A stretch of 31,205 bases of DNA, from IMG/VR virus record IMGVR_UViG_3300042564_003160, positions 1-31,205 of that record, one strand, 5' to 3'. The notes beneath the pieces were generated by a model. The model was not told the origin of the DNA, did not search any database, and was given only the letters and a program-made list of their open reading frames with translations. This document shows, piece after piece, positions 4,658-31,205 of this stretch (position 1 is the stretch's first letter; each line of letters opens with the position of its first letter). A program made the position numbers and the translations under genes. Source of the stretch: a virus.

Positions 4658-4674
4658 TTTGTAACACAACCAAG

Positions 4675-4705
4675 TCCTCCCAGCTACATACTGGGAGGAT
4701 TTTTT
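4675..4705 (+). terminator. Terminator whose 3' arm is the next gene's Shine-Dalgarno
   Basis: TCCTCCCAG (4675-4683) pairs perfectly over nine bases with CTGGGAGGA (4691-4699) around CTACATA, and six T follow directly. The ATG at 4706 starts right after the T-run. The only Shine-Dalgarno for that gene, GGGAGGA (4693-4699), is the right arm of the stem, so read-through transcripts would carry a masked ribosome site. Confidence 0.87.
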
Positions 4706-5293
4706 ATGAGCGCAGCATTTGTATTGGGCAACGGCGTCAGCCGATTAAGTGTGGACTTGGATCAGTTAAAACCGCATGGACGAATCTACGGATGTAATGC
4801 CTTGTACAGAGAGTTTGTTCCGGATGTGTTGATCAGCACAGATCGAGGTATTGCCCAGGAAATACAAAATTCTGGGTACGCACAAAACAACACAATGTAC
4901 ACTAGAAAACCCTTACCTGGACTAGGCGCTCAGACAGTGCCTCAAAGTTATTTTGGATTCAGTTCAGGCCCTATTGCTGTGGGACTAGCAGCTAGGGACA
5001 AGCATCTGGCAGTATATTTGATTGGGTTTGACATGGGTCCGAGTGCCACCAACAAGTTCAACAATGTGTATGCTGACACAGAATTTTACAGAAAAAGTTC
5101 TAGTTTGCCCACATTTACCGGCAATTGGGTGAGACAAATTGTAACTATTTGCAAAGACTTTTCTAACACCAGTTTTCATCGTGTGATGGGAGATACAACT
5201 GCTAGTATTCCAGAGTTAAACAACATTAACAATTTGAGAAATATGCCTATGATAGACTTCCTTGACCGTATAAATAACGCAAAGGACCTTTAA
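4706..5293 (+). CDS. Small GT42/DUF115-like putative glycosyltransferase-fold protein
   Basis: A 195-aa protein. It opens with VLGNGVSR (residues 6-13), a glycine-rich nucleotide-binding-type turn, continues with IYGCNALY (27-34), and has FSSGPIAVGLAA (85-96) followed by VYLIGFDMG (103-111). This order (GNG-S, then a C/R-N-x-x-Y element, then SG..A..A...G...IYLxGxDF) is what I remember of family 42 sialyltransferases and related MAF/DUF115 proteins. Resemblance is limited to these motifs, so the enzyme class is tentative. The neighbouring fibre genes make glycosylation of a virion or host glycan plausible, but nothing here shows it. The start follows a terminator directly and has a masked Shine-Dalgarno. 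The 3' end contains the late promoter of the next gene, and the stop codon touches that gene's ATG. Confidence 0.45.
   Translation: MSAAFVLGNGVSRLSVDLDQLKPHGRIYGCNALYREFVPDVLISTDRGIAQEIQNSGYAQNNTMYTRKPLPGLGAQTVPQSYFGFSSGPIAVGLAARDKHLAVYLIGFDMGPSATNKFNNVYADTEFYRKSSSLPTFTGNWVRQIVTICKDFSNTSFHRVMGDTTASIPELNNINNLRNMPMIDFLDRINNAKDL
5269..5276 (+). promoter_or_regulatory. T4-type late promoter, exact TATAAATA
   Basis: An exact TATAAATA sits inside the last codons of the preceding gene, 17 bases before the ATG at 5294. By T4 spacing transcription starts near 5282, so the Shine-Dalgarno AAAGGA (5281-5286) would lie at the extreme 5' end of the mRNA. This is the presumed main late promoter of the fibre operon. 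Confidence 0.78.
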
Positions 5294-6828: not shown

Positions 6829-9800
6829 ATGGCACAACAGATTATTGACATTGGTGCAGCAGCAAATGACGGCACTGGTGAACCGTTACGTGATGCATTT
6901 AACGCTGTAAATGAGAATTTCACTGAGATTTATACTGCTGGCCCGGTAGGCAGCAATGTTGTCATCTCCGGAAATACCATCACAGTCACTGGCACCAACA
7001 ACAACCTGGTGCTGCGAGCCAATGGAATTGGCAATATCCAAGCAAACAGTTCAATCATGCCCAGCATTGATGCTGTGTATGACATTGGTAGCCCTACTGC
7101 AAGAATTGACACAGTCTATGCTGCATATTTTGTGGGCAACGGATCTGGCATAACTGGCATAACCACTGCTGGTACCAGCATAAATTCGGGCACATCCAAT
7201 GTAACAATTGTCAGTGCAAATGGTAATGTAACAGTCAGCGTGGCCGGAACCAGTAATGTTGCTGTGTTTGGCGCAACTTCTTCAAATATCAAAGGCAATC
7301 TAGCAGTTGGTAGTCTTTCAACTGCTGGTCAAATTTCGGCCACCAGTAATGTCACTGGCGGCAATATTAGAACTGTTGGCTCAGTCAGTGCCACAGGCAA
7401 CATCACTGGCAATTATATTCTAGGCAATGGTGCATTGTTATCGGGTATTATCACTTCTGTATCTAATATTAACAACGGAAACAGCAATGTAAACATTCAA
7501 AACACCGGTGCCAACATCACTGTGTCTGTTAACGGTGTGGCAAATACTGTGGTGTTCGGTCCTGCAGCCACCACATTCACAAGCAACATTGTTCCTGGTG
7601 CCAACAACATATACACACTGGGCACAGCCACCCAAAGATTTAAAAATATTTACTTGAGTGGTAACACAATCACTCTTGGTGATTCAACATTCACGGCCAA
7701 TGCTGATTCCGTTGTTTTGACCAATCCCGTTGGTGGAGTCTTTACATTGCAAGGAACAAGTCAACTCAGCGGATCGTCTATTATCAATGGACTCAGTCAG
7801 ATGGCCATTCCGGTGGCTAACGGCAATGTACAGGTCAGTATTGGAACCACAGCCAATGCATTTGTGATCAGCAATGCTGGTGTTCAGAGCATTGGTAACA
7901 TACGGTCCAACAGCCAAATTAGTGCTACTGGTAATATTGTTACTGATCAGTTTTTTGTTGGTAACTTTTCTGGCAACATAACTGGCAACTTTGTTGTACC
8001 TGGTGTCAACACACAGATTCTTTACAACAATTTTGGCAATGCCGGAGCCAGTGCTGCTTTTAGATTTGATAGCACAAGCAATGTATTAACATTAACTGGT
8101 AATGCACAAGTTGGAAACATATCGTCCACAGGCAATGTCATTGGCAGTTATATATTAGGCAATGGTAGCCAACTCACAGGACTACCTGCCACTTACAGCA
8201 ATGCCAACGTGGCAACATATTTGGCCAGCGCCACCAACACATCAAACATTATTACCACAGCAAACATTGCTGGCGGTAACTTGTCTTTAACTGGAGCATT
8301 TGGTGCCAGTTCGTTAAGTTCAGCAGGCAATGTAACTGGTGGCAACTTAAAAACATTGGGCATAATAAGTTCTGCAGGCAATATCACAACCGACGGGTAC
8401 TTTGTTGGTACTTTTGCCGGCAACATCACAGGTAATTTGACAGTACCTGGATCAAACACACAAGTTATTTTTAATAACGCTGGCAATGCTGGAGCCAGTG
8501 CTGGATTGAGATTTGACACAGCAGGGCCTAACTTGCTCACAGTCAATGGCAATATACAAACCATTGGATTGTTAGCGTCTGGCAATGTATCGGCAGCTGG
8601 CAATGTATTGACTGGTAATGTTATAACCACTGGTGCTGTAATTGCAACTGGTAATGTAAACAGTTTGGCCAATGTCAATGGCGGTAATTTGGCCACTGAA
8701 GGATCAATCACAGCCACTGCCAACGTAACAGGTGGCAATTTGATCACTGCTGGAGCACTGTCAGTTGGCACTACAGTCAGCACAACTGGTAATATCACTG
8801 GTAGTAATATCATCACTGCAGGATCAGTCAGTGCCGGTGGCGATGTTAGCCTAATAGGCAATGTCACCGGCGGAAATATTCACACTGTTGGGCAAGTTAG
8901 TGCAACCGGTAATATAACTGGTAACAACATTCAGTTTGGCATATTCAAATTACTTAATAATGGTGATGCACAAGTTGGTAATTTAACTGTTAGCAATGGC
9001 CCAGGTGTTGGCAATCTTCTTGTTGGTAATATTATAAGTGCAACTGGCAACATACTAACTGGCGGTAATATCATCGCAACCACCAACGTCATTGGCGGTA
9101 ATGTGCTGGCTGGATCAGGTGTTATTACCACAACTGGCAACATCACAGGCGGTAATATATTGGCTGGGTCAGGTGTGATCAGCACTGGTGGCAATGTCAA
9201 TGGCTCAGTATTCAATGGCAATGTGGCATTCAGCACTGGCACAGTGTCAGGCACTGGCAACATCACTAGTGGTAACATAATACTTGCAGGTGTGGTATTG
9301 TCCACCAACACAGTTTCTGCCGCCGGCAATGTGATTGGTGGCAACATCAACACAGGTGGAAATGTTTCTACTTCGGGCAATGTCATAGCTCAAGACGTCA
9401 GAGTTGGCCCGGGCATCACTGGCGGTACCATAAGCGCATTAGGCAACATTACTAGTGCCAACACATTGAACGCAGTTAGTTTGAGTTTGAGTGGAAATGT
9501 TGTATCACCATTCAATGTCACAGGCAACATCACTGGTGGTAATATTATTGCTGTGGCAGCAGTCAATGCTGTTTCAATTAGTGCAAGTGGCAACATCACT
9601 GGTGGTAACATACTTGGCGGAGCCAACGTCAATGCCACGACTCACACAGGTACCACCGTTTCAGTAACTGCCAATATCACTGGCGGTAATGTAAATGCAG
9701 CAGGATTGAGTTTGAGTGGCAATGTGGTATCACCACTCAATGTCACTGGCACTGTAACTGGTGGCAATATTATCAGCGTGGCAGCAATGTCAGCGGCCAC

Positions 9801-12060
9801 AATGACCACTACAGGAAATGCCATAGTTGGCGGTGACTTGATTGTCAACGGTAACTTGACATATCTCAATATATCATCGTTCAATGTTGAAGATCCCATA
9901 ATTGGTCTTGGTCGTGGACCCAACAACGCACCACTAATCTCCGATGACAACAAAGATCGCGGTACAGATTTATTTTATTTTGACACAACAGAAAAACAAG
10001 CCTTTGTTGGATTCAAAGACTCAACTGGTAAAATGTTTGCTGCAACTGATGTCAGCATTGCCAACGAAGTGGTCACAGTCAACAGTTATGGAAGTTTTGT
10101 AGTTGGACAGTTAGAAGGTGCAACAGTAAGCACCACAGGCAATATCACAGGTAATTATTTTGTTGGTAATGGATCTGCCTTGACCGGTGTAGTAGCAACC
10201 AGCATTGGTGTGTTGCCAAGTTTGAGTGTGACCGGCAATATCATCACAGGCAACTTGAACTCGTTAGGACAAGTCAGTGTAGTGGCCAATGTTGTTGGTG
10301 GTAATGTTAGTACCGCAGGATTGATCACTGCAACTGGTAACATCACAGGTGGCAACATTGCCACAGGTGGACTGATCACCGCCGCTGGCAATATCACAGG
10401 TGGTAACATCATGGGTGGTGCCAATGTCAATGCCACATTGTTTACAGGTACCACTGTCAGTGTAACTGGAAATATCACAGGTGGTAATGTGCTTGGTGGC
10501 GCCAATGTCAATGCCACACTGTTTACTGGTACTACAGTTTCAGTAACTGGCAACGTCACAGGTGGTAATTTAAATGCTGTGGGATTGAGTTTGAGTGGTA
10601 ATGTTGTATCACCACTCAATGTCACTGGCAACATTGCAAGCGGTAATATAACAACTCCTGGGTTGATCAGTTCAACTGGTAACATCACTGGTGGCAACAT
10701 TATTTCCGTTGCAGCGGTCAGTGCTGTATCTGTAGTGGCCACAGCAAATGTTGATGGTGGTAACATCAATGCAAGTGGCAACGTCACTGGTGGTAATATT
10801 ACCACTGCAGGATTGGTCACTGTCACTGGCAATGTGATTAGCGGTAATATTACTACAACAGGACAAGTGAGTGCCACTGCCAACGTCACAGGTGGCAATT
10901 TGATCACTGCTGGCCTGGCCACTGTGGCAGGCAACATAATTGGCGGCAATATCACCACTGCAGGTCTAGTAACTGCTACAGGCAACATTGTGTCAGGTGC
11001 GTTGATTTCGGCCGCAGGTAATGTTTCAGCCGCAGGCAATGTGTTTGCTCAATACATTTTTGGTAACTTGGTCGGTAGTTTTTCACTGGCTACTGCCAAC
11101 AGTCAAGTGTTATTTGACAACAATGGATCAGTGTCTGGCGATTCAGGATTGATATACGATTTTTCAGCCAATGCACTTACTGTTGGTGGCGCAGTAACAA
11201 CCACCAATGGCGGAAGTTTGACCGTGGCAGGTGCTGCCGCAGTAACTGGCAATATCACAACTTCAATTGGTAACATTGGCGGCGGCAACATCATAGCCAC
11301 AACACTGGTCAGTGCAGGTGGTAACGTGGTTGGTGGAAATATTACCACAGGTGGTGCGGTAAGTGCAACCGGCAATGTCATTGGCGGCAATATCAATTCA
11401 GGCGGCGTGGCCAGCATAACCGGCAATGTTGTTGGTGGCAATGTTAGCACTGCAGGATTGATTACTGCGACTGGTAATGTCACTGGTGGAAACATTATAA
11501 CAGCCGCATTGGTGCAAGGACTCACAGTAAGTGCAACAGCCAACGTGATTGGTGGCAATATCAGCACAGGTGGATTGATCACAGCCACAGGCAACGTCAC
11601 TGGTGGTAACTTGATCACTGGTGCACAAGTTATTTCTGTAGGTAACGTGAGTGGTGGCAATATCAACACAGTAGGATTGATCTCTGCAACTGGTAACATC
11701 ATTGGTGGCAACCTGTCGGGCACCAGCATTGTGGGCACGTTGACCACAGCCGCCCAAACCAACATCACCTCAGTAGGCACATTGGACAGTTTGGCAGTGA
11801 CTGGCAACGTGGTAGGTGGCAACTTAATAACCAATAGTGGATTTGTGTTTGCCACTGGCAACATCACTGGCGGCAATTTGAATGCAGCAGGATTGAGTTT
11901 GAGTGGAAATGTGCTCAGTGCAATCAACATGATCGCAAACATCACAACAACAGCCAATGTTAATGCCAACAATATCAGTGCTACAACCTCGATAAATATT
12001 GCAGGAGCACAGGTAGCAACTATAGATGATGCGGCTGCATTGGCAATAGCTTTAGGATAA
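6829..12060 (+). CDS. Giant tail-fibre-like protein 2 (1743 aa solenoid)
   Basis: The N-terminus MAQQIIDIGAAANDGTGEPLRDAFNAVNENFTEIY is the attachment-type leader found on long fibres of many T4-like phages. Then come YxxYFVGNGSGITGI-type elements and several dozen copies of a ~17-residue unit, TGN[IV]TGGN[IVL]xTAGLISA, expected to build a beta-solenoid shaft. About residues 1000-1085 hold an interruption domain (VNGNLTYLNISSFNVEDPII, then DDNKDRGTDLFYFD) that recurs in phage fibres. Further modules include NTQ[IV][LI][FY]NN.GNAGASA (near 400 and 550) and SIVGTLTTAAQTNITSVGTL near the C-terminus. There is no repeat-free knob: the protein ends shortly after the last repeats in a small helical tail (INIAGAQVATIDDAAALAIA), so a partner protein may supply the tip. 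The Shine-Dalgarno AGAGGA is in a hairpin, 12 bases from the ATG. Confidence 0.82.
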   Translation: MAQQIIDIGAAANDGTGEPLRDAFNAVNENFTEIYTAGPVGSNVVISGNTITVTGTNNNLVLRANGIGNIQANSSIMPSIDAVYDIGSPTARIDTVYAAYFVGNGSGITGITTAGTSINSGTSNVTIVSANGNVTVSVAGTSNVAVFGATSSNIKGNLAVGSLSTAGQISATSNVTGGNIRTVGSVSATGNITGNYILGNGALLSGIITSVSNINNGNSNVNIQNTGANITVSVNGVANTVVFGPAATTFTSNIVPGANNIYTLGTATQRFKNIYLSGNTITLGDSTFTANADSVVLTNPVGGVFTLQGTSQLSGSSIINGLSQMAIPVANGNVQVSIGTTANAFVISNAGVQSIGNIRSNSQISATGNIVTDQFFVGNFSGNITGNFVVPGVNTQILYNNFGNAGASAAFRFDSTSNVLTLTGNAQVGNISSTGNVIGSYILGNGSQLTGLPATYSNANVATYLASATNTSNIITTANIAGGNLSLTGAFGASSLSSAGNVTGGNLKTLGIISSAGNITTDGYFVGTFAGNITGNLTVPGSNTQVIFNNAGNAGASAGLRFDTAGPNLLTVNGNIQTIGLLASGNVSAAGNVLTGNVITTGAVIATGNVNSLANVNGGNLATEGSITATANVTGGNLITAGALSVGTTVSTTGNITGSNIITAGSVSAGGDVSLIGNVTGGNIHTVGQVSATGNITGNNIQFGIFKLLNNGDAQVGNLTVSNGPGVGNLLVGNIISATGNILTGGNIIATTNVIGGNVLAGSGVITTTGNITGGNILAGSGVISTGGNVNGSVFNGNVAFSTGTVSGTGNITSGNIILAGVVLSTNTVSAAGNVIGGNINTGGNVSTSGNVIAQDVRVGPGITGGTISALGNITSANTLNAVSLSLSGNVVSPFNVTGNITGGNIIAVAAVNAVSISASGNITGGNILGGANVNATTHTGTTVSVTANITGGNVNAAGLSLSGNVVSPLNVTGTVTGGNIISVAAMSAATMTTTGNAIVGGDLIVNGNLTYLNISSFNVEDPIIGLGRGPNNAPLISDDNKDRGTDLFYFDTTEKQAFVGFKDSTGKMFAATDVSIANEVVTVNSYGSFVVGQLEGATVSTTGNITGNYFVGNGSALTGVVATSIGVLPSLSVTGNIITGNLNSLGQVSVVANVVGGNVSTAGLITATGNITGGNIATGGLITAAGNITGGNIMGGANVNATLFTGTTVSVTGNITGGNVLGGANVNATLFTGTTVSVTGNVTGGNLNAVGLSLSGNVVSPLNVTGNIASGNITTPGLISSTGNITGGNIISVAAVSAVSVVATANVDGGNINASGNVTGGNITTAGLVTVTGNVISGNITTTGQVSATANVTGGNLITAGLATVAGNIIGGNITTAGLVTATGNIVSGALISAAGNVSAAGNVFAQYIFGNLVGSFSLATANSQVLFDNNGSVSGDSGLIYDFSANALTVGGAVTTTNGGSLTVAGAAAVTGNITTSIGNIGGGNIIATTLVSAGGNVVGGNITTGGAVSATGNVIGGNINSGGVASITGNVVGGNVSTAGLITATGNVTGGNIITAALVQGLTVSATANVIGGNISTGGLITATGNVTGGNLITGAQVISVGNVSGGNINTVGLISATGNIIGGNLSGTSIVGTLTTAAQTNITSVGTLDSLAVTGNVVGGNLITNSGFVFATGNITGGNLNAAGLSLSGNVLSAINMIANITTTANVNANNISATTSINIAGAQVATIDDAAALAIALG
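7310..12000 (+). repeat. Main GNxTGGN solenoid array of fibre 2
   Basis: Dozens of imperfect 51-base units (17 aa), interrupted near 9830-10130 by a non-repeat domain. A distinct 81-base tandem (27 aa, beginning GGANVNATLFTGTTVSVTGN) starts at 10414 and 10495; a relative, GGANVNATTHTG, starts near 9616. A second recurring insert, LSLSGNVVSP[FL]NVTGN, appears near 9480, 9705 and 10585. Confidence 0.85.
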
Positions 12061-12063
12061 CAA

Positions 12064-12396
12064 ATGGCAAATACTTTTACACGAAAAACTTCGCAAAACA
12101 TTGGTGCAACAGCTACTCAAATAGGTGCATATACTGTGCCCTCTGCTACAACTGCCATTGCAATTGGGCTTACTTGTACCAATACCACAGGCAGTGCAAT
12201 CACAGCCAATGTGTTTTTGGCCAATGCCACCGCCAACACTTACATAGTGGCCAATGCGCCCATCAGTTCGGGGGCATCGTTGATCCCCATTGGCGGAGAT
12301 CAAAAGATTGTGCTGATCACTGGGGACAAAATATACGTGCAAAGCAGTGCTGCCACCAGCATTGATGCAATTTTGAGCATAATGGAAATCACCTAA
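12064..12396 (+). CDS. Small virion structural protein
   Basis: A 110-aa protein without repeats or catalytic motifs, predominantly beta (NIGATATQIGAYTV, TNTTGSAITANVFLAN, PIGGDQKIVLITGDKIYVQS) and ending IDAILSIMEIT. Small proteins of this composition between fibre genes are common in aquatic T4-like phages, where they are listed as structural; I know of no assigned role. Possible jobs are a fibre joint, a cap or a chaperone-like partner. AGGATAA precedes the ATG by a few bases, overlapping the end of the 1743-aa fibre gene. Its stop and the next start overlap as TAATG, so it is translationally coupled to fibre 3. Confidence 0.62.
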   Translation: MANTFTRKTSQNIGATATQIGAYTVPSATTAIAIGLTCTNTTGSAITANVFLANATANTYIVANAPISSGASLIPIGGDQKIVLITGDKIYVQSSAATSIDAILSIMEIT

Positions 12397-15300
12397 TGGC
12401 ATATCTTGGTCTTCAACCCAACACACCACTGCTGAATACCAGTACTCAAACGTTCAGTGGCAACAGTGTGGCCACACAGTTTAGCCTGGCTAGATCAGTG
12501 GCATCAGCGTCTGATCTGGATGTGATGATTGGCAGCACACTGCAAAGACCATTCACAGATTACACTGCTGGCAACGTAAGTTTACAATTTATTTCTGCAC
12601 CCGGTGCTGGCGCAAACAACATCACAGTTACCTATCGAGGCGGTGCATTGAACAGTCTTGATCTTACAGCATCGGTGTTTAATGCAGGCACAGTGGCTGC
12701 ACCCAGTGTTGTGAGTTTGGCAGCCAATAACACAGGTATCTACTGGGCCAATGCCAGTTCAATGAGTGTCACAGTGAGCGGCACCAATCGTGCCACATTC
12801 ATGGCCAATGCTACCTCAATCAGCACAGACACAGGTGCACTGATTGTGGATGGCGGCCTGGGAGTGGATGGCAATGTCAACATTGGTGGAGTCGTTGGTA
12901 TTACTGACGCCACTGAGAGTACCAGTGTTTCAACTGGCGCCTTCAAACTTAGTGGCGGCGCCGGCATTGTAGGCAACTTGAATGTAGGCGGTGATATTAC
13001 CTGTGTGGGCGACTTCACAGTGAATGGTACATTTACCACAACAGGTACAGACAGCCTGGCTGTGACTGATCCGTTTATCTTTTTGGCTGAAAACAATCCT
13101 GGCGACACATATGACTCGGGTGTAATTAGTCAGTATTACGACGGTGCCAACCTTCGTTACACTGGCTACTTCCGTGATATAACAGATGCCAAGTACAAGT
13201 TGTTTACCAATTTGTTGACTGAGCCTACCACCACAGTTGATACCACAGACCCCAGTTTTCAATATACTGATTTGATCCTGGCCAATTTGAGTGCCACTGG
13301 CAACGTGTCAGGCACATACTTTATTGGTAACGGTTCTGCACTCACAGGTATTTCAACAACCACCAGCAATATTTTCAATGCCAACACATCAGTGGCCATT
13401 GCCGCAGTCAATGCCAATGTCAACATGGTGGTCAACAGTGTACAAATTGCCAATGTGTGGTCAGGTGGTATTAGTGTAGTGGGGGCAGTAGCAGCCTCAA
13501 CCACACTCAGTGCCACTGGCAATGCTATCGCTGGCAATATTTCAACAGCAGGGGTGATCACAGCCACAGGCAATATTACATCAGCAGCCAACGTATCAGC
13601 CGGCAACGTATTAACTGGTGGCGCAGTAAGTTCCACGGGCAACATCACAGGTGGCAACGTTATTGGTACCACTGCTGTTTCAACTGGTGGCAACGTGGTC
13701 GGTGGCAACGTTCGTACCAATGGAACTGTTTCGGCTGCTGGAGACGTATATGGCAATAACATCAACGCTACTTCAACATTAACAGCAGGAACTACCATCA
13801 GCGCAATAGGCACAATCACAGGCGGAAACATCCTAACTGGTGGTCAAGTCAGTGCCGCAGGTAATATTACAGGCAGTTATTTCCTTGGCAACGGATCTGC
13901 ATTAACTGGTATAAGTTCAAATAAAATTTTCAATGGTACCAGTGAAGCTAATATTGGTGCCTCTGGTGGCAATGCTAATATATCAATTGGCGGCACATCA
14001 AACGTAGCGGTGTTCAGCACACTGGGTGCCAATGTAACTGGTTGGATTGGTGCTACTGGCAACTTAGATGCTGCTGGCAACGTTGCGTTTACCGGTACCG
14101 TACAAAACATCACTATTGGTACCAGCCAAACCACAGGCAATGTAACAGTAGGTGGAGCAGTACAAACTGGCACAATTTTAATTGGTCAAAGCACAAACCC
14201 ACAGACCATAAACATTGGCCATGGTGCCACAGGCACAGGCAATACAAAAACCATTCAAATTGGCGAAAACGGTTTGGCTGGGTCCACCACACTGATTGAC
14301 ATTGGTCCTGTCTCAGCGACCACAGCCGCTGGCACAGTGACATTCAACACTGCCACCATAGTGGCCATTAGCAATACTGGTGGCACAGCACTCAGTGTGG
14401 CTGGCAATGTGACAGGTGGTAATGTATTAACTGGTGGATTGATCAGTGCCACAGGCACAATCACTGGTGGTAATTTGGCCACAGGTGGTACAGCCAGTGC
14501 TGTGGGCAATGTCACAGGTGGTAATATTATCACCGCGGCAGCAGTAAGTGCTGCCTCAGTCAGTGCCAGTGGCACAGTTATTGGTGCTGGTAACATCACT
14601 GGCGCCAACATCAACACTGGAGGTTTGGTCACAGCCACAGGTAATGTCACCGGTGGCAACATTGCCACAGCCGGATTGATCACTGTCACAGGCAATGTGC
14701 AAGCAGTGGGCAATGTGTCAGGCGGTAACATACTCACAGCCAATATGGTGCAAGGTGCCACAATCAGTGCCACAGCCAATGTATTGGCCACAGCCAATGT
14801 CAGCGGCGCATACTTCTTGGGCACTGGCATTAGTTTGAGTGGCAACGTGATTTCTGGTATCAGTACCACTGCCAATATAACTGGTGCCAATATTATTGCC
14901 ACTGCCGCAATGAGTGCAGTATCAGTATCAGCAAGTGGCAACATCACAGGCGGCAATGTACTAGGTGGAGCCAATGTCAATGCCACATTGTTTACTGGTA
15001 CTACAGTTTCAGTAACTGGCAACATCACTGGTGGTAATGTGTTGGGCGGAGCCAATGTCAATGCTACTACACACACAGGTAGCACAGTTAGTGTTACTGG
15101 TGCAATTACTGGTGCAGGCATTACTGGTACAAGTTTAACAGTATCCACTGGCACAGTTACATTGGGCAACATTGTCAATGCCAACGGCAATGGTGTGGGC
15201 AACATTGGTAATAGTACAGTTTACTTCGACACAGTTTTTGCCAAAGCAACATCAGCACAATACGCTGACTTGGCAGAATGGTACGAAGCAGATGCTAACT

Positions 15301-15635
15301 ATGCTCCAGGCACAGTGTTGGTATTTGGCGGCAGTCGAGAAGTTACTGAAGCAATTGGTATCAACGATGTACGTGTGGCAGGTGTGGTCAGTACAAATCC
15401 AGCACACATCATGAACTCAGGACTCAAAGCTGAACACACAGCAGCCGTGGCATTAACAGGTCGTGTACCAACTCTGGTGGTCGGTGCTGTGGCCAAAGGT
15501 GACATGATGGTCACAGCTGGTGGTGGCCGAGCACAGGCCTGTGCAGAACCTAAACTGGGCAGTGTGATTGGTAAAGCAGTACAAGACCACCCAGGTGGAC
15601 AAGGCGTGATTGAAATTGTTGTGGGAAGATTATAA
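12396..15635 (+). CDS. Tail-fibre-like protein 3 (1079 aa, conserved C-terminal domain)
   Basis: The N-terminal ~100 residues (MAYLGLQPNTPLLNT..., QFSLARSVASASDLDVMIG) are a short attachment-type domain typical of phage adhesins. Residues ~150-300 contain a recurring fibre module (VDGGLGVDGNVNIGG, FTVNGTFTTTGTDSLAVTDP, then an aromatic SQYYDGANLRYTGYF section). Residues ~300-905 are solenoid repeats like those of fibre 2, with YFLGNGSALTGIS elements. The last ~130 residues are repeat-free: SAQYADLAEWYEADANYAPG, VLVFGG, AGVVSTNPAHIMN, VALTGRVP, GVIEIVVGRL. I recognise this as a recurrent C-terminal domain of phage fibres, usually thought to cap the shaft. It overlaps the preceding gene by one base and the next gene likewise (TAATG both times), giving a tightly coupled operon. 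Confidence 0.8.
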   Translation: MAYLGLQPNTPLLNTSTQTFSGNSVATQFSLARSVASASDLDVMIGSTLQRPFTDYTAGNVSLQFISAPGAGANNITVTYRGGALNSLDLTASVFNAGTVAAPSVVSLAANNTGIYWANASSMSVTVSGTNRATFMANATSISTDTGALIVDGGLGVDGNVNIGGVVGITDATESTSVSTGAFKLSGGAGIVGNLNVGGDITCVGDFTVNGTFTTTGTDSLAVTDPFIFLAENNPGDTYDSGVISQYYDGANLRYTGYFRDITDAKYKLFTNLLTEPTTTVDTTDPSFQYTDLILANLSATGNVSGTYFIGNGSALTGISTTTSNIFNANTSVAIAAVNANVNMVVNSVQIANVWSGGISVVGAVAASTTLSATGNAIAGNISTAGVITATGNITSAANVSAGNVLTGGAVSSTGNITGGNVIGTTAVSTGGNVVGGNVRTNGTVSAAGDVYGNNINATSTLTAGTTISAIGTITGGNILTGGQVSAAGNITGSYFLGNGSALTGISSNKIFNGTSEANIGASGGNANISIGGTSNVAVFSTLGANVTGWIGATGNLDAAGNVAFTGTVQNITIGTSQTTGNVTVGGAVQTGTILIGQSTNPQTINIGHGATGTGNTKTIQIGENGLAGSTTLIDIGPVSATTAAGTVTFNTATIVAISNTGGTALSVAGNVTGGNVLTGGLISATGTITGGNLATGGTASAVGNVTGGNIITAAAVSAASVSASGTVIGAGNITGANINTGGLVTATGNVTGGNIATAGLITVTGNVQAVGNVSGGNILTANMVQGATISATANVLATANVSGAYFLGTGISLSGNVISGISTTANITGANIIATAAMSAVSVSASGNITGGNVLGGANVNATLFTGTTVSVTGNITGGNVLGGANVNATTHTGSTVSVTGAITGAGITGTSLTVSTGTVTLGNIVNANGNGVGNIGNSTVYFDTVFAKATSAQYADLAEWYEADANYAPGTVLVFGGSREVTEAIGINDVRVAGVVSTNPAHIMNSGLKAEHTAAVALTGRVPTLVVGAVAKGDMMVTAGGGRAQACAEPKLGSVIGKAVQDHPGGQGVIEIVVGRL
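13280..15130 (+). repeat. GNxTGGN solenoid array of fibre 3
   Basis: Imperfect 51-base units as in fibre 2, plus the 81-base module starting at 14965 and 15046. Bases 14970-15023 match 10501-10554 in fibre 2 at 53 of 54 positions, far closer than protein-level conservation of a degenerate repeat would require. Confidence 0.85.
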
Positions 15636-23153: not shown

Positions 23154-23161
23154 TATTTATA
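23154..23161 (-). promoter_or_regulatory. T4-type late promoter, exact TATAAATA, for the minus-strand neck operon
   Basis: Minus-strand TATAAATA ends only four bases before the ATG at 23149. By T4 spacing (last A at -6) the start site would fall at or within a base of the start codon, predicting a leaderless or nearly leaderless mRNA. It is the only promoter candidate I see for the gp14/gp15/Nudix operon. Confidence 0.72.
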
Positions 23162-26632: not shown

Positions 26633-27151
26633 ATGGACTTAATGATCGACATTGAAGGGTTGGCTACAGGCCCTGACGCAACAATATTAACCATTGCGGC
26701 TCAGGCGTTTGATCCCGTTGGCCTGGGCTACTACCAGCACAAATACTATGCTAGAGTTGATCTTGAAAGCCAAGAGAACCGCACTATTGAACAAGGCACC
26801 ATCAACTGGTGGGCCACACAAGGCGCCGCACAGGATGAAGCCTTTGCAGAAGATGGACGCATACCCTTGGATCAGGCCCTGGATGAACTGCACCGGTTAT
26901 GTTGGAAGTGCAACCGCATCTGGATGAACGGTCCCACCTACGATGCCAACATACTTGAGCATGCTTACAAGAGTTATCACAAACCCCTGCCCTGGCAATA
27001 TTATAAGATCCGTGATGCAAGAACGGTATATAGTTTGTACCCAGGGTTGCCCAAACCGCCTACCAGTCACCATGCCTTGGAAGACTGTCGCAGGCAAATT
27101 GACATGTTGCAAGCAACCTTGGCACATTTAAATATCAAGGAACTGGCATGA
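26633..27151 (+). CDS. DEDDh 3'-5' exonuclease (DexA/ExoVIII-like)
   Basis: A 172-aa protein with all catalytic positions of the DEDDh fold: D6 and E8 in MIDIEG (motif I), D104 in NGPTYDANIL (motif II), and H146 with D151 in HHALED (motif III, H-x-A-x-x-D). GTINWW (55-60) is a further match to T4 DexA and exonuclease VIII-type enzymes. The likely role is degrading DNA or RNA ends to recycle nucleotides during early infection, alongside the dNMP kinase it overlaps by four bases (ATGA). The first ATG lies at the predicted transcription start; the alternative M4 (26642) has a weak GGA in front and would give MIDIEG as the N-terminus. Host-type promoter and partner both argue for early or middle expression. 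Confidence 0.87.
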   Translation: MDLMIDIEGLATGPDATILTIAAQAFDPVGLGYYQHKYYARVDLESQENRTIEQGTINWWATQGAAQDEAFAEDGRIPLDQALDELHRLCWKCNRIWMNGPTYDANILEHAYKSYHKPLPWQYYKIRDARTVYSLYPGLPKPPTSHHALEDCRRQIDMLQATLAHLNIKELA

Positions 27152-27795
27152 TCATTGGCGTTTGTGGATTTATTGGCTCGGGCAAAGATACCGTTGCGGA
27201 CTATCTTGTAAATCTACATCATTTTCGTAGAGAGAGTTTTGCCAACACACTCAAAGATGCTGTGAGCGCAGTGTTTGGATGGGACCGAACCATGCTGGAA
27301 GGACGCACCAAACAGGCTCGTGAATGGCGTGAACAGCAAGACAATTGGTGGACCAATCGATTAGGTATAGTAATTACTCCCCGTTGGGTTTTGCAAAATT
27401 GGGGCACTGAAGTATGCCGCAACGGATTCCATGATGATATCTGGATCGCCAGCTTGGAAAACAAACTGCGCAACAGCACAGATGATGTTGTGATCAGTGA
27501 CTGCAGATTTCCCAACGAAATTCAAGCTATCAAACAATCAGGTGGCCGGGTGGTGCGTGTGGTGCGTGGTCCTGAACCTGAGTGGTACAATGCGGCTGTG
27601 AGCCAAAACCGCGGACCCAATGGCAACAGCACCTGGGCACTGAGTGGGCGCCAACTAGAACAACTGGGCGTACATGAGTCAGAAACCGCCTGGGTAGGCA
27701 CTAAATTTGACGTGGTGCTGGACAACAACAGCACCCTGGATGACTTATATCAGCAGGTCAAGCGTCTGGTTCAAGATCACCCACCCGCCAAGTGA
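27148..27795 (+). CDS. Deoxynucleoside monophosphate kinase (T4 gp1-like)
   Basis: A 215-aa P-loop kinase. The Walker A is GFIGSGKDT (residues 7-15). Next comes FANTLKDAVSAVFGWDRTMLEG (31-52), which includes the nucleotide-binding helix of this family, TPRWVLQNWGTEVCRN (77-92), and the diagnostic ISDCRFPNEIQAIK (116-129). T4 gp1 phosphorylates dTMP, dGMP and 5-hydroxymethyl-dCMP; the substrate range here is unknown. The start overlaps the exonuclease stop (ATGA), so nucleotides released by the nuclease can be rephosphorylated by a coupled product. The 3' end overlaps the convergent zinc-finger gene by 38 bases. The operon's terminator lies ~120 bases beyond the stop, inside that opposing gene. 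Confidence 0.9.
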   Translation: MIIGVCGFIGSGKDTVADYLVNLHHFRRESFANTLKDAVSAVFGWDRTMLEGRTKQAREWREQQDNWWTNRLGIVITPRWVLQNWGTEVCRNGFHDDIWIASLENKLRNSTDDVVISDCRFPNEIQAIKQSGGRVVRVVRGPEPEWYNAAVSQNRGPNGNSTWALSGRQLEQLGVHESETAWVGTKFDVVLDNNSTLDDLYQQVKRLVQDHPPAK

Positions 27796-28102
27796 CTTCA
27801 GTCCGGGCAATTTCTTCTACACAGTTACGACAGACTGTTCGTAGATTTCTCACAGTGGCATTGTTGAGATCGCCATCAATGTGATACACCAACAACTGAC
27901 TAACAAGCCTGGCTCGAAACCCGCATCGGTCACATGCGGGTTTTTTCTTGTATCCTGAGGATTTCCACCGAGGTTCTCTAGGCTTGATTCCTCGACCCCT
28001 GCGTTGGCAAGTCTCGCATCTACTGCGATAGTGTGTGACATCTTCCCGGATGTAGTTTACGGCACAAGGTCGTTGATTGCAGGCTTTACATATGGGTCTC
28101 AT
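27758..28102 (-). CDS. Zinc-binding HNH-like protein
   Basis: A 114-aa protein from the ATG at 28102 (MRPICKACNQRPCAVNYI). The frame runs 25 codons further upstream but has no convincing start there. Cys pairs are C5/C8, C29/C32, C57/C60 and C91/C94, plus C13. The second half, from CDRCGF through VYHIDGDLNNATVRNLRTVCRNC (72-94), follows the zinc-framed HNH plan (H-I-D-G-D...N-N....N-L...C-x-x-C). However, the first His of the usual HH pair is Y73 and the final His is missing after C94. It is either a reduced nuclease or a zinc-finger DNA-binding protein derived from one. I recall closely similar small proteins in marine T4-like phages. A TAAATA lies four bases before the ATG, with no Shine-Dalgarno. 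The gene contains a plus-strand terminator. Confidence 0.78.
   Translation of the reverse strand: MRPICKACNQRPCAVNYIREDVTHYRSRCETCQRRGRGIKPREPRWKSSGYKKKPACDRCGFRARLVSQLLVYHIDGDLNNATVRNLRTVCRNCVEEIARTEVTWRVGDLEPDA
27918..27946 (+). terminator. Plus-strand terminator embedded in the antisense zinc-finger gene
   Basis: AACCCGCAT (27918-27926) pairs perfectly with ATGCGGGTT (27934-27942) around CGGTCAC, and the T-run continues to 27946. It follows the dNMP kinase stop by ~120 bases on the same strand. On the minus strand the same bases encode the zinc-knuckle segment KPACDRCGF, and the A-run encodes lysines. In that direction only three T follow, so it should not stop the zinc-finger mRNA. Confidence 0.88.
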
Positions 28103-28106
28103 CAGG

Positions 28107-28114
28107 TATTTAGT
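28107..28114 (-). promoter_or_regulatory. Late-promoter-like ACTAAATA for the zinc-finger gene
   Basis: Minus-strand ACTAAATA matches the T4 late core at six of eight positions and ends four bases before the ATG at 28102, the same spacing as the exact core before 23149. If used, the mRNA would be essentially leaderless. Confidence 0.45.
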
Positions 28115-28165
28115 GCATGGACCTTGGCCAAAGGGCAGTGTAAACTGGGGTTTTTTGGGTATGCC

Positions 28166-28173
28166 TATAAATA
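28166..28173 (+). promoter_or_regulatory. T4-type late promoter, exact TATAAATA, for the sheath gene
   Basis: Exact TATAAATA with a predicted start near 28179, a 20-base leader, and AAGGA (28187-28191) seven bases before the ATG at 28199. A conventional late-gene arrangement for an abundant structural protein. Confidence 0.85.
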
Positions 28174-28198
28174 TCAATAACTTGAAAAGGAATCAACC

Positions 28199-31100
28199 AT
28201 GGCACTAGTATCACCAGGCGTAGAAGTAACAGTAATTGACGAGAGTCAATATATCCCTTCCGCTGTCAACACAGTACCCTATTTTTTGATTGCCACAGCA
28301 CAGAACAAAGCTGATGCTGCTGGAGTCGGAGTTGCAGCCGGTACAACCGCCGCCAATGCAAACAAAACTTATCTCATTACCAGTCAACGTGATTTGGCAG
28401 CAACATTTGGAGTGCCATTCTTTTACAACACCACAACAGGTACACCAATTAATGGTTACGAACTCAACGAGTATGGCTTGCTGGCAGCGTACTCAGCACT
28501 GGGTGTTACAAACCGTGCGTATGTTCAACGTGTGGACATTGACTTAACTGAGCTCACAGCCAGTTTGAGTCGTCCCACAGGCAATCCCAACAATGGCACA
28601 TATTGGTTAGATACCAGCACCAGTCTCTGGGGTATTTTTGAGTGGAATCAAGCCTCAGCAACATTTACCAATCAAGTGCCCATTGTGCTCACAGACACAG
28701 CAGATGTGGTTGATTATGCTGGAGGCGATTACACTCCTATCAGCACCATAGGCAGCATTGGCGACTATGCTGTCAGCGCTGTGAGTTTAAACAATCAAAA
28801 CTACTATAAAAATTCAGACAATGCCTGGGTGTTACTGGGCACAGATGCGTGGAAAAATTCATGGCCCACCTTGCAAGGCACAAACTCAGTGTCTGGCAGC
28901 GGATTAACTGTTGGTTCCAACATGTACATCAATGATACGTTGGCCACTGTTAGTGCAACCAACACTGTGGCAGGATTTGCCGCAGTGATCAATGGCTTGA
29001 ATATTCCTGGTGTCACTGCTGCCGCAGTCAGCAACAAGTTGACATTGTATGCAGACAGTGATGCTACCAATGACGGATCCACAGACAACGGTGGTGTTAT
29101 CAGTATTGTAACTGGCACCATTGGTGGTGCCGCACTGCTGACCACATTGGGTATTGCAGCCATTGAATATCGTGCCCCAAGTTACTTCCCAGGTTACAGT
29201 TATCAAGCACCACGTTGGAGAACCACAGACACAGGCACTACTGTAAGCACTGCACCTGCTCCAACAGGTTCTATTTGGCAAAACATCAGCCCTGCCAGCA
29301 ATGGTATGAGTTTGAAATTAAAACAATACAGTGCTGCATTGGATGTCTTTGTTGAACAAAGCAGTCCTGCATACTCATATGATGGCACAGCAAACTATGG
29401 TCTTGATCCCACAGGCGGTGGTAGAAATATTCCAGTTGGCAGCACATATGTACAATTTGATAATCAATTATACAATACAGAGCCAAATTCAAATGCTGCC
29501 TTTTTGCTGCTGGAAAGAATTGCGTTGGGGGCAACAGTTGTAACTGGTGACACTACTCCTGGATCTGGTGGAGATGCATTGTTTATACAAAACAATGTTT
29601 TTTATATCTTTGCCACACAAGCAGGCCAAACGGTAACAAACCCAGAGTTGGCAACCCCAAGTACACCTTATGTGGTGACATTGAGCGGCACCAGTGTTGC
29701 TTCTTTTATAACTTCTGTCAGTGCTGCCAACGTGCCTTATGTGAGTGCCAGCGTAAACAGTGCTGGTAATATTGTGTTTACACACAGCCAAGGCGGAACA
29801 ATATATTTACAAAACTTCACTGGTACCCCAGTTACCACTGCTGGATTTACTACCGCAACACCAAAAGTTCGTCAAGATCAAACAGCAGGCGTATTGTGCT
29901 TGAGTAACTGGGTCACAGCTGACTTGTTCTCATACACTGCAAGTGATGTTGCACCAGATCAGAATCCAGCTGATGGACGTTTGTGGTACTACAGTTCAGT
30001 TAGTGATGTGGACATCATGATTCAGGACAACGGCACATGGCAAGGTTATCAAAACGTCACAAACGACACCCGTGGATTTGATTTGAACTTGACCAATGCG
30101 TCTGGTCCTATTATTGCTGCCTCTGAACCACTGACACAAAATGATGCGGCTGAAAGTCCATTGCAATACGGCGATTTGTGGATTGACAGCAGTGATCTTG
30201 AAAACTACCCCTTGCTGTATCGTTGGGAGCAGGTTAGCGGCACAGATCAATGGGTTGCGGTTGACACCACAGACCAGACCACATCAAATGGTATTTTGTT
30301 TGCTGACGCACGTTGGGCACCCAATGGCACCACAGACCCTGTGGCAGATCCATTCCCCACAATTGAAAGTTTGTTGATCAGTGATTACTTGGACTTGGAT
30401 GCACCTGATCCTGCACTGTACCCCCAAGGTATGTTGTTGTTCAACACACGCCGTTCAGGTTACAATGTCAAGAGTTTCCAAAGCAATTATTTTAACTCAA
30501 CCACATTCCCTGATGACACATTGCCCGCAGAGAAAAATACCTGGCTCACAGCATCGGGCAACAGAGATGATGGCGCTATGTACGCTGGACGCTTGGCCCA
30601 ACGCAAACTGATTGTGGCAGCAATGAAGTCAGGAATTGACACTAGCCTGCCTGCACGTGAAGAACAGAATCAATTCAATTTGGTTGCTGCACCTGCTTAT
30701 CCTGAGCTGTTGGTCAACTTGGTTGCACTCAGCAACGAACGTGCCAACACATTGTTTGTTGTGGGCGATACTCCACTACGCTTGCCAAATACAGGCACTG
30801 CATTGGTAGAACATGCCACCAACAACAACGGTCTTGGTGTATCAACAGATGATGGATTGACCATTGGCAGTGCGTATGCTGCTGTGTTCTATCCCTCATG
30901 CCAGACCACAGACCTGTCAGGTAACACAGTTGTTGCACCTCCCACACACATGATGGTTCGCACCATATTGCGTAGTGATGCAGTGAGTTATCCATGGTTG
31001 GCACCTGCTGGTACACGTCGTGGTGTGGTAGACAATGCTGAAGCTATTGGTTATATCGATGCACAAACTGGCGAGTTCGTACAGTTGGCAGTGGGACAAA

Positions 31101-31205
31101 GTGTGCGTGACATATTGTATGAAAACAACATCAACCCAATTACTTTCATCCCAGGCATTGGTATCACCAACTTTGGTAACAAAACACGTCAAGGTGCAAC
31201 CACAG
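28199..31205 (+). CDS. Tail sheath protein, gp18-like (5' part)
   Basis: The frame is open from ATG at 28199 to the window end, 1002 codons without a stop; the 3' end is outside. The N-terminus (ALVSPGVEVTVIDESQYIPS, then TVPYFLIATAQNKADAAGV, YLITSQRDLAATFGVPFF, YGLLAAYSALGVTNRAYVQRVD) is a classic gp18 start. C-terminal sheath signatures are LLFNTRRSGYNVKSF (~746), YPELLVNLVALSNERANTLFVVGD (~830-855) and YPWLAPAGTRRGVVDNA (~930-945). T4 gp18 is 659 aa. The excess comes from a large insertion (~125-740) holding several G-x-x-W-x-x-x-S modules (GTYWLDTSTSLWGIFEWN, GRLWYYSSVSD, GDLWIDSSDL), which I recall from sheaths of aquatic T4-like phages and which should decorate the outside of the tail. 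Sheath contraction drives DNA delivery. Confidence 0.94.
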   Translation, partial: MALVSPGVEVTVIDESQYIPSAVNTVPYFLIATAQNKADAAGVGVAAGTTAANANKTYLITSQRDLAATFGVPFFYNTTTGTPINGYELNEYGLLAAYSALGVTNRAYVQRVDIDLTELTASLSRPTGNPNNGTYWLDTSTSLWGIFEWNQASATFTNQVPIVLTDTADVVDYAGGDYTPISTIGSIGDYAVSAVSLNNQNYYKNSDNAWVLLGTDAWKNSWPTLQGTNSVSGSGLTVGSNMYINDTLATVSATNTVAGFAAVINGLNIPGVTAAAVSNKLTLYADSDATNDGSTDNGGVISIVTGTIGGAALLTTLGIAAIEYRAPSYFPGYSYQAPRWRTTDTGTTVSTAPAPTGSIWQNISPASNGMSLKLKQYSAALDVFVEQSSPAYSYDGTANYGLDPTGGGRNIPVGSTYVQFDNQLYNTEPNSNAAFLLLERIALGATVVTGDTTPGSGGDALFIQNNVFYIFATQAGQTVTNPELATPSTPYVVTLSGTSVASFITSVSAANVPYVSASVNSAGNIVFTHSQGGTIYLQNFTGTPVTTAGFTTATPKVRQDQTAGVLCLSNWVTADLFSYTASDVAPDQNPADGRLWYYSSVSDVDIMIQDNGTWQGYQNVTNDTRGFDLNLTNASGPIIAASEPLTQNDAAESPLQYGDLWIDSSDLENYPLLYRWEQVSGTDQWVAVDTTDQTTSNGILFADARWAPNGTTDPVADPFPTIESLLISDYLDLDAPDPALYPQGMLLFNTRRSGYNVKSFQSNYFNSTTFPDDTLPAEKNTWLTASGNRDDGAMYAGRLAQRKLIVAAMKSGIDTSLPAREEQNQFNLVAAPAYPELLVNLVALSNERANTLFVVGDTPLRLPNTGTALVEHATNNNGLGVSTDDGLTIGSAYAAVFYPSCQTTDLSGNTVVAPPTHMMVRTILRSDAVSYPWLAPAGTRRGVVDNAEAIGYIDAQTGEFVQLAVGQSVRDILYENNINPITFIPGIGITNFGNKTRQGATT

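Follow-up and report, generated by a model that had tools for sequence, protein, structure and literature searches.

Genes at the locus

The window, i.e. the whole stretch of DNA that was analysed (31.2 kb), is a fragment of a T4-like phage from an uncultured virus record, and carries T4-like structural genes. A long run of plus-strand genes is closed by two ORFs that are arranged in an operon. The first of these (26633–27151, plus strand) encodes a 3'-5' exonuclease (Rv2179c-like/PHROG 255), which matched Pfam PF16473 with an E value of 1.1e-31 and PHROG 255 with 4.5e-45. Its end overlaps by 4 bp the start of the downstream partner (27148–27795, plus strand), a deoxynucleoside monophosphate kinase (dNMP kinase) gene assigned from PHROG 139 (E 9.4e-53) and Pfam DNMK (E 8.7e-13). 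In some relatives (L038, L044, L057–L060, L064–L068, L139–L143 and L157) inserts of roughly 0.7–2.2 kb lie between the two genes, which overlap in the others.

The kinase gene is met by a gene on the minus strand (27758–28102), predicted to encode a degenerate HNH-type zinc protein of 114 amino acids, and it is this gene that hosts the putative terminator on its opposite strand. The two coding sequences overlap tail to tail by exactly 38 bp (27758–27795), as stated in the initial annotation, and 38 bp is also the commonest kinase/HNH overlap among the relatives (96 loci). The first plus-strand gene past the hairpin is the tail sheath gene (28199–31205, open to the window end), whose identity was assigned from its position in the T4-like structural cluster and not from a profile search. 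A T4-type late promoter, TATAAATA (28166–28173, plus strand), lies 33 nt upstream of the sheath ATG. Among 186 distinct upstream regions of relatives, 145 carry NTAAATA at about the same place; the first T is often variable in late promoters of T4-like phages (PMC1524935).

About 400 related viral contig loci were retrieved, and 230 distinct HNH genes were used for the main counts. The HNH gene is conserved in more than 400 viral stretches, and the order kinase (plus)/HNH (minus)/tail sheath (plus) is kept in nearly all relatives with enough sequence. When GTDB species were searched with the HNH alignment, only two MAG contigs matched, and no cultured host context was obtained. A relative of the locus (L415) occurs on a 3.4-kb contig assigned to a MAG with the label Legionella; this is more likely a phage contig binned with that MAG than evidence of a host.

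The antisense HNH gene and its product

The start of the HNH gene is most likely the ATG at 28102, and not the TTG at 28177 given by mechanical ORF finding, because many homologues (50–70% identity) carry stop codons upstream of the ATG and because the residues 'IFIGI', which would then form the N-terminus, are the sheath late promoter read in reverse complement. A TAAATA late-promoter-like motif (28103–28115, minus strand) is located a few nucleotides before this ATG, and is present in most of the relatives inspected. If used, it would give an almost leaderless HNH mRNA.

The protein has two CxxC pairs and the C-terminus WxxGDLEPD, and both the cysteines and GDLEPD are invariant in the alignment. 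The conserved features CDRC, HIDG, NL and CRNC correspond to the zinc-binding cysteine pairs, the first histidine and the asparagine of HNH proteins. This layout (CxxC...HxDG...N...CxxC) is shared with the phage HNH endonuclease families PHROG 1571 and 10822, but the last HNH histidine (CxxCH) found in those families is replaced: the protein reads CRNCVEE here, and V, E, T, S, A or G stands at that position in the 20 aligned members; the histidine is present in eight distant phage homologues. With this residue replaced, the protein is probably not an active nuclease. The HNH profile matches were weak (E 1.2e-4; Pfam HNH score 15.4, below the cut-off of 21.4). An AlphaFold model (mean pLDDT 70.7, pTM 0.48) gave only partial Foldseek matches, to DotN, McrA, Cap5 and other HNH-like folds, none with E <0.001, and was used for the description 'HNH-like' and nothing further. 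Together these weak but consistent matches indicate an HNH-type zinc protein.

A terminator-like hairpin inside the antisense gene

Read from the plus strand, the HNH gene contains a hairpin of ten perfect base pairs plus one G-U pair (27916–27944), with a 7-nt loop and a predicted energy of -14.5 kcal/mol. Its 5' arm, AAACCCGCAT (27917–27926), covers on the minus strand the codons for F, G and C and the third base of that for R. The loop, CGGTCAC (27927–27933), covers the remainder of CDRC, and the 3' arm, ATGCGGGTTT (27934–27943), the first base of the C codon followed by the A and P codons and the third K codon. The tract TTTTTTCTT (27941–27949) is read on the minus strand as AAG AAA AAA, i.e. 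Lys-Lys-Lys. The initial annotation had described a perfect nine-base-pair stem with a T-run, with arms encoding P-A-C and C-G-F and a T-run encoding lysines. The stem is indeed perfect and followed by a T-run, and the codons read as described; the length was understated. The stem starts 122 nt past the kinase stop (27795), close to the 120 bases originally estimated, and in relatives this distance is most often 120–129 nt.

The stem is G+C-rich and the U-tract follows it directly, which is the form of an intrinsic (Rho-independent) terminator. It does not lie between the two stop codons; the genes overlap, and it is inside the HNH gene. On the minus strand the stem has an equal fold energy, and is followed by TTTCGAG and no U-tract. 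A search of Rfam with 2.3 kb around the hairpin gave no match.

Among 16 terminator-like sites in the last 6.2 kb (6.3 expected) the hairpin is the strongest, and it is the second strongest of the whole window. Forty dinucleotide shuffles of the whole window, counted on both strands, nevertheless yielded five sites at -14.4 kcal/mol with a T-run. As shuffled windows also give such sites, the hairpin in this window by itself is only suggestive, and the comparative evidence decides. Judged by the shuffles alone, such a stem is only mildly rare, and its near-palindromic form could be an accident of codon bias in a conserved protein motif; the evidence against this comes from the relatives, and is given below.

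When the same peptide was recoded synonymously, a terminator as stable arose in 0.1% of trials. Across the 230 HNH genes, a plus-strand terminator inside the antisense gene was found in 153, where shuffling of synonymous codons within single genes predicted 29.4; on the minus (sense) strand the same shuffling predicted 2.9 and two were found. Because both the protein and its codon usage are preserved by this procedure, the effect of the lysine run is already allowed for. In about one third of the relatives the convergent operon is present, and no terminator is recognisable in the HNH gene.

G-U wobble pairs were also tried as a test of strand, and were uninformative (21 on the plus strand and 20 on the minus strand), so that the case for a direction is made by the T-run and the strand counts. 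The palindrome might instead act in the HNH mRNA, or as a DNA-binding site with the HNH protein as one possible ligand; the equal energy of the minus-strand fold and the even wobble counts would allow this. Conservation of the T-run, however, is limited to one side of the stem, terminator-like sites on the minus strand do not exceed the expected number, and one position of the stem carries all four base pairs (see below), which is not expected of a DNA site. A role in the HNH mRNA or as a DNA site thus appears very unlikely.

Codon covariation across relatives

Where the stem exists, nearly all genes have Pro, Ala, Thr or Ser at the second residue before the knuckle. In the set of 230 distinct genes, the base that ends the Gly codon tracks the base that begins the codon six places before it, with the matched codon pairs CCC/GGG, GCC/GGC, ACC/GGT and TCC/GGA, so that all four base pairs are seen at one position. 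Pro CCC occurred with GGG in 95 of 100 cases and Ala GCC with GGC in 27 of 28; the rarer Thr ACC was paired with GGT in three of seven and Ser TCC with GGA in three of five. In all, the residue -2 and Gly codons were Watson-Crick matched in 140 of the 161 Pro/Ala/Thr/Ser cases, compared with a mean of 80.7 and a maximum of 99 in 20,000 shuffles. A second pair, between the first base of the Ala/Thr codon and the third base of the Cys codon, behaved similarly: GCA/TGC (68) and ACA/TGT (50) were common, and GCA/TGT (3) and ACA/TGC (4) rare.

Pair counts made on 76 distinct elements gave 46 doubly changed cells versus 13.6 in shuffles, with none of 500 shuffles as high, and 86% of cells were paired versus 14–58% when the partner was slid. 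Phylogenetic tests, in which the tree was built without the element columns and the independent events are few, agreed in direction with almost no contrary case. For GCN/TGC and ACN/TGT there were seven concordant and no discordant independent pairs (p 0.016), and in a larger tree about six versus none (median p 0.03). For Pro versus the other residues with GGG there were about five versus none (median p 0.06). These results indicate that the base pairing of the stem is maintained by selection. They strongly support the initial proposal that one stretch of DNA serves as an RNA structure on the plus strand and a metal-site block on the minus strand, and they bear out the suggestion that the near-palindrome arises from complementary codons on the two flanks of CDRC.

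Pro-type and Met-type lineages

In 95 distinct Pro-type genes the string AAG AAA AAA CCC GCA TGT .. GGG is almost invariant, while many neighbouring codons vary synonymously. The three lysine codons are AAG, AAA and AAA in 91, 92 and 94 of the 95 genes, respectively. Elements at -8 kcal/mol or better were found in 85 of the 95, against 6.1 expected by recoding.

In 45 Met-type genes, AAA and AAG at two of the lysines, and TGT and TGC, are used near evenly, and Gly is mostly GGA. Pairing of ATG with GGN is impossible, and these genes accordingly have no such stem. The convergent kinase is retained in the Met lineages, whereas the stem and most of the codon constraint are lost; the release of the codons thus follows the loss of the stem and not of the operon. 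That the same codons are freer in genes unable to form the stem, and that compensatory changes run through amino-acid changes, makes it extremely improbable that the palindrome is a coincidence of biased codons.

In the main (largest) Met clade only weak hairpins with poor T-runs were seen and no clear substitute terminator, which suggests that termination there is not indispensable or is brought about by another route. Another Met clade, characterised by the peptide RKNRGI (L217–L234, L251), has the stem TCGTGG/CCACGA followed by TTCTTCCT, still inside the HNH gene and 43–61 nt further downstream on the plus strand than the knuckle site. In one of its members both arms are changed (TCGCGG/CCGCGA). 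The Asn of RKNRG, in place of the Gly of RKG, lengthens the U-tract. In a few genes the register of the hairpin is shifted, e.g. AAATCCGCACTTTTCACAGTGCGGTTTCTTTTT.

We lean towards the view that the terminator confines the residue two before the zinc knuckle to the NCC-codon residues Ser, Pro, Thr and Ala, each with its own Gly codon, such that an RNA would be choosing metal-site amino acids encoded on the other strand. Lineages would move between stem and stem-less states, in some cases with another register or a second place in the antisense gene.

Relatives without the kinase or outside the family

A comparison of homologues with and without a convergent operon, which the initial annotation had suggested, is partial, as the gene order is almost invariant. 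A kinase-less marine group (L278, L286–L294) has Lys at the key residue and no stem; in L292, the one kinase-less member that was read, another gene is convergent. The Met lineages, within the family, are the better control. In eight HNH genes of cultured phages, with 30–37% identity and different neighbours, the key residue is Asp, Glu or Gly, with which the stem is impossible, and some distant HNH homologues also have a convergent neighbour. As the distant homologues are incompatible with the stem, the stem-compatible residue is characteristic of this family, not of HNH proteins at large.

Proposed mechanism

The structure, conservation, covariation, strand bias and gene context of the element at 27916–27949 suggest that it is very probably a unidirectional intrinsic terminator, read from the plus strand and coded inside the HNH gene. 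RNA polymerase coming from the exonuclease-kinase operon would run about 120–150 nt into the convergent HNH gene, the nascent RNA would fold (AAACCCGCAU/AUGCGGGUUU), and the complex would stop in the U-tract near 27944–27949. The benefit may be a limit on antisense transcription over the HNH gene and on read-through into the tail sheath gene, which has a T4-type late promoter of its own. The terminator would be coded inside the HNH gene because the convergent genes leave no free space between them. The knuckle block KKK-[P/A/T/S]-[A/T]-C-D-x-C-G-F would permit the stem, as NCC can pair with GGN and RCA with TGY, with AAA AAA supplying the U-tract. Selection on the RNA would then fix synonymous codons, and restrict the residue before the knuckle to those with NCC codons.

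The same plus-strand element could have a main role other than plain termination, either in setting the 3' end or the stability of the kinase mRNA, or in forming a defined antisense tail that regulates HNH expression. The latter would resemble the excludon or non-contiguous operon, in which an opposite-strand gene lies between two co-directional genes with overlapping transcripts (PMC7154746). The kinase/HNH/sheath locus shares this plus/minus/plus geometry, and the kinase transcript would carry about 150–190 nt complementary to the HNH mRNA before the hairpin ends. Unlike in an excludon, however, the plus-strand transcript is here expected to stop inside the opposite gene. A G+C-rich stem with a direct U-tract is the standard form of an intrinsic terminator, and stem and U-tract codons have become fixed jointly. 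The hairpin of different sequence with a T-rich stretch, found about 50 nt away in one clade, also fits a terminator better than a specific regulatory RNA. A main role other than termination is thus unlikely, though less so than action on the minus strand or as a DNA site.

Relation to known systems

The lambda tO terminator of OOP RNA, which lies inside cII, is a precedent for a terminator within an antisense coding sequence (PMC5869508). The RNA that ends at lambda tO is a short antisense transcript, and the site is close to the end of cII, whereas the hairpin described here follows a convergent protein-coding operon, lies on a zinc knuckle about 160 nt into the opposite gene, and covaries in hundreds of genomes. 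Convergent gene junctions are favoured sites of intrinsic terminators (PMC7566282), and T4-like phages keep a terminator at a conserved place downstream of uvsW.1, which is such a junction (PMC1524935). Bidirectional terminators between convergent genes, that of T4 uvsW.1 included, share the convergent junction with the present hairpin, but the latter is within one gene and appears to be one-directional.

Full-text literature searches found precedents for parts of this phage element and no report of the element itself. What is new is its mid-gene place on a zinc knuckle, together with evidence, with all four base pairs seen, which suggests that an RNA restricts amino-acid choice. In tightly packed phage genomes, the same letters may have to carry both a control signal and a protein. 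At this locus the sharing is directly readable, because the arms of the hairpin covary even where this alters amino acids of the opposite-strand protein. It offers a clean natural system for asking to what extent protein sequence can be dictated by an RNA signal. Elements of this kind will escape terminator finders in which coding sequences are masked, and likewise codon analyses in which the antisense strand is ignored. For further cases, the motif KKK-[PATS]-[AT]-C-x-x-C-G provides a ready-made place to search.

Other elements of the window

A palindrome is located between the HNH start and the sheath late promoter (28122–28134, plus strand). It reads CCTTTGSCAAAGG in many relatives, and its variants in others (CCTATATATAGG, CCTTACGGTAAGG, CCTTTCGAAAGG and CCTTGATCAAGG) mostly still have symmetric arms; the copy in the window, CCTTGGCCAAAGG, differs by one base. 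The palindrome appears to be a covarying element beside the late promoter. A T-run of 5–7 (28149–28156, plus strand, and in relatives) precedes the late promoter NTAAATA by an almost constant distance. The idea of a further, intergenic terminator before the sheath promoter was considered and rejected: the T-run is conserved, but the sequence preceding it folds no more stably than its shuffles (median z -0.33).

Two more strong intrinsic terminators were predicted on the plus strand, at 4673–4701 (-17.6 kcal/mol) and 1660–1679 (-13.4 kcal/mol). The latter is just past an ORF ending at 1625 and inside the mechanical ORF 1646–2560, suggesting that this gene probably starts further downstream. Two other exact TATAAATA motifs (23154–23161, minus strand, and 5269–5276, plus strand) are directly upstream of ORFs on the same strand. 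Very long repetitive proteins, made up of variants of SATGNVTGGNI, are encoded at 6829–12060 and 12396–15635 (plus strand), and are probably tail fibre or adhesin proteins.
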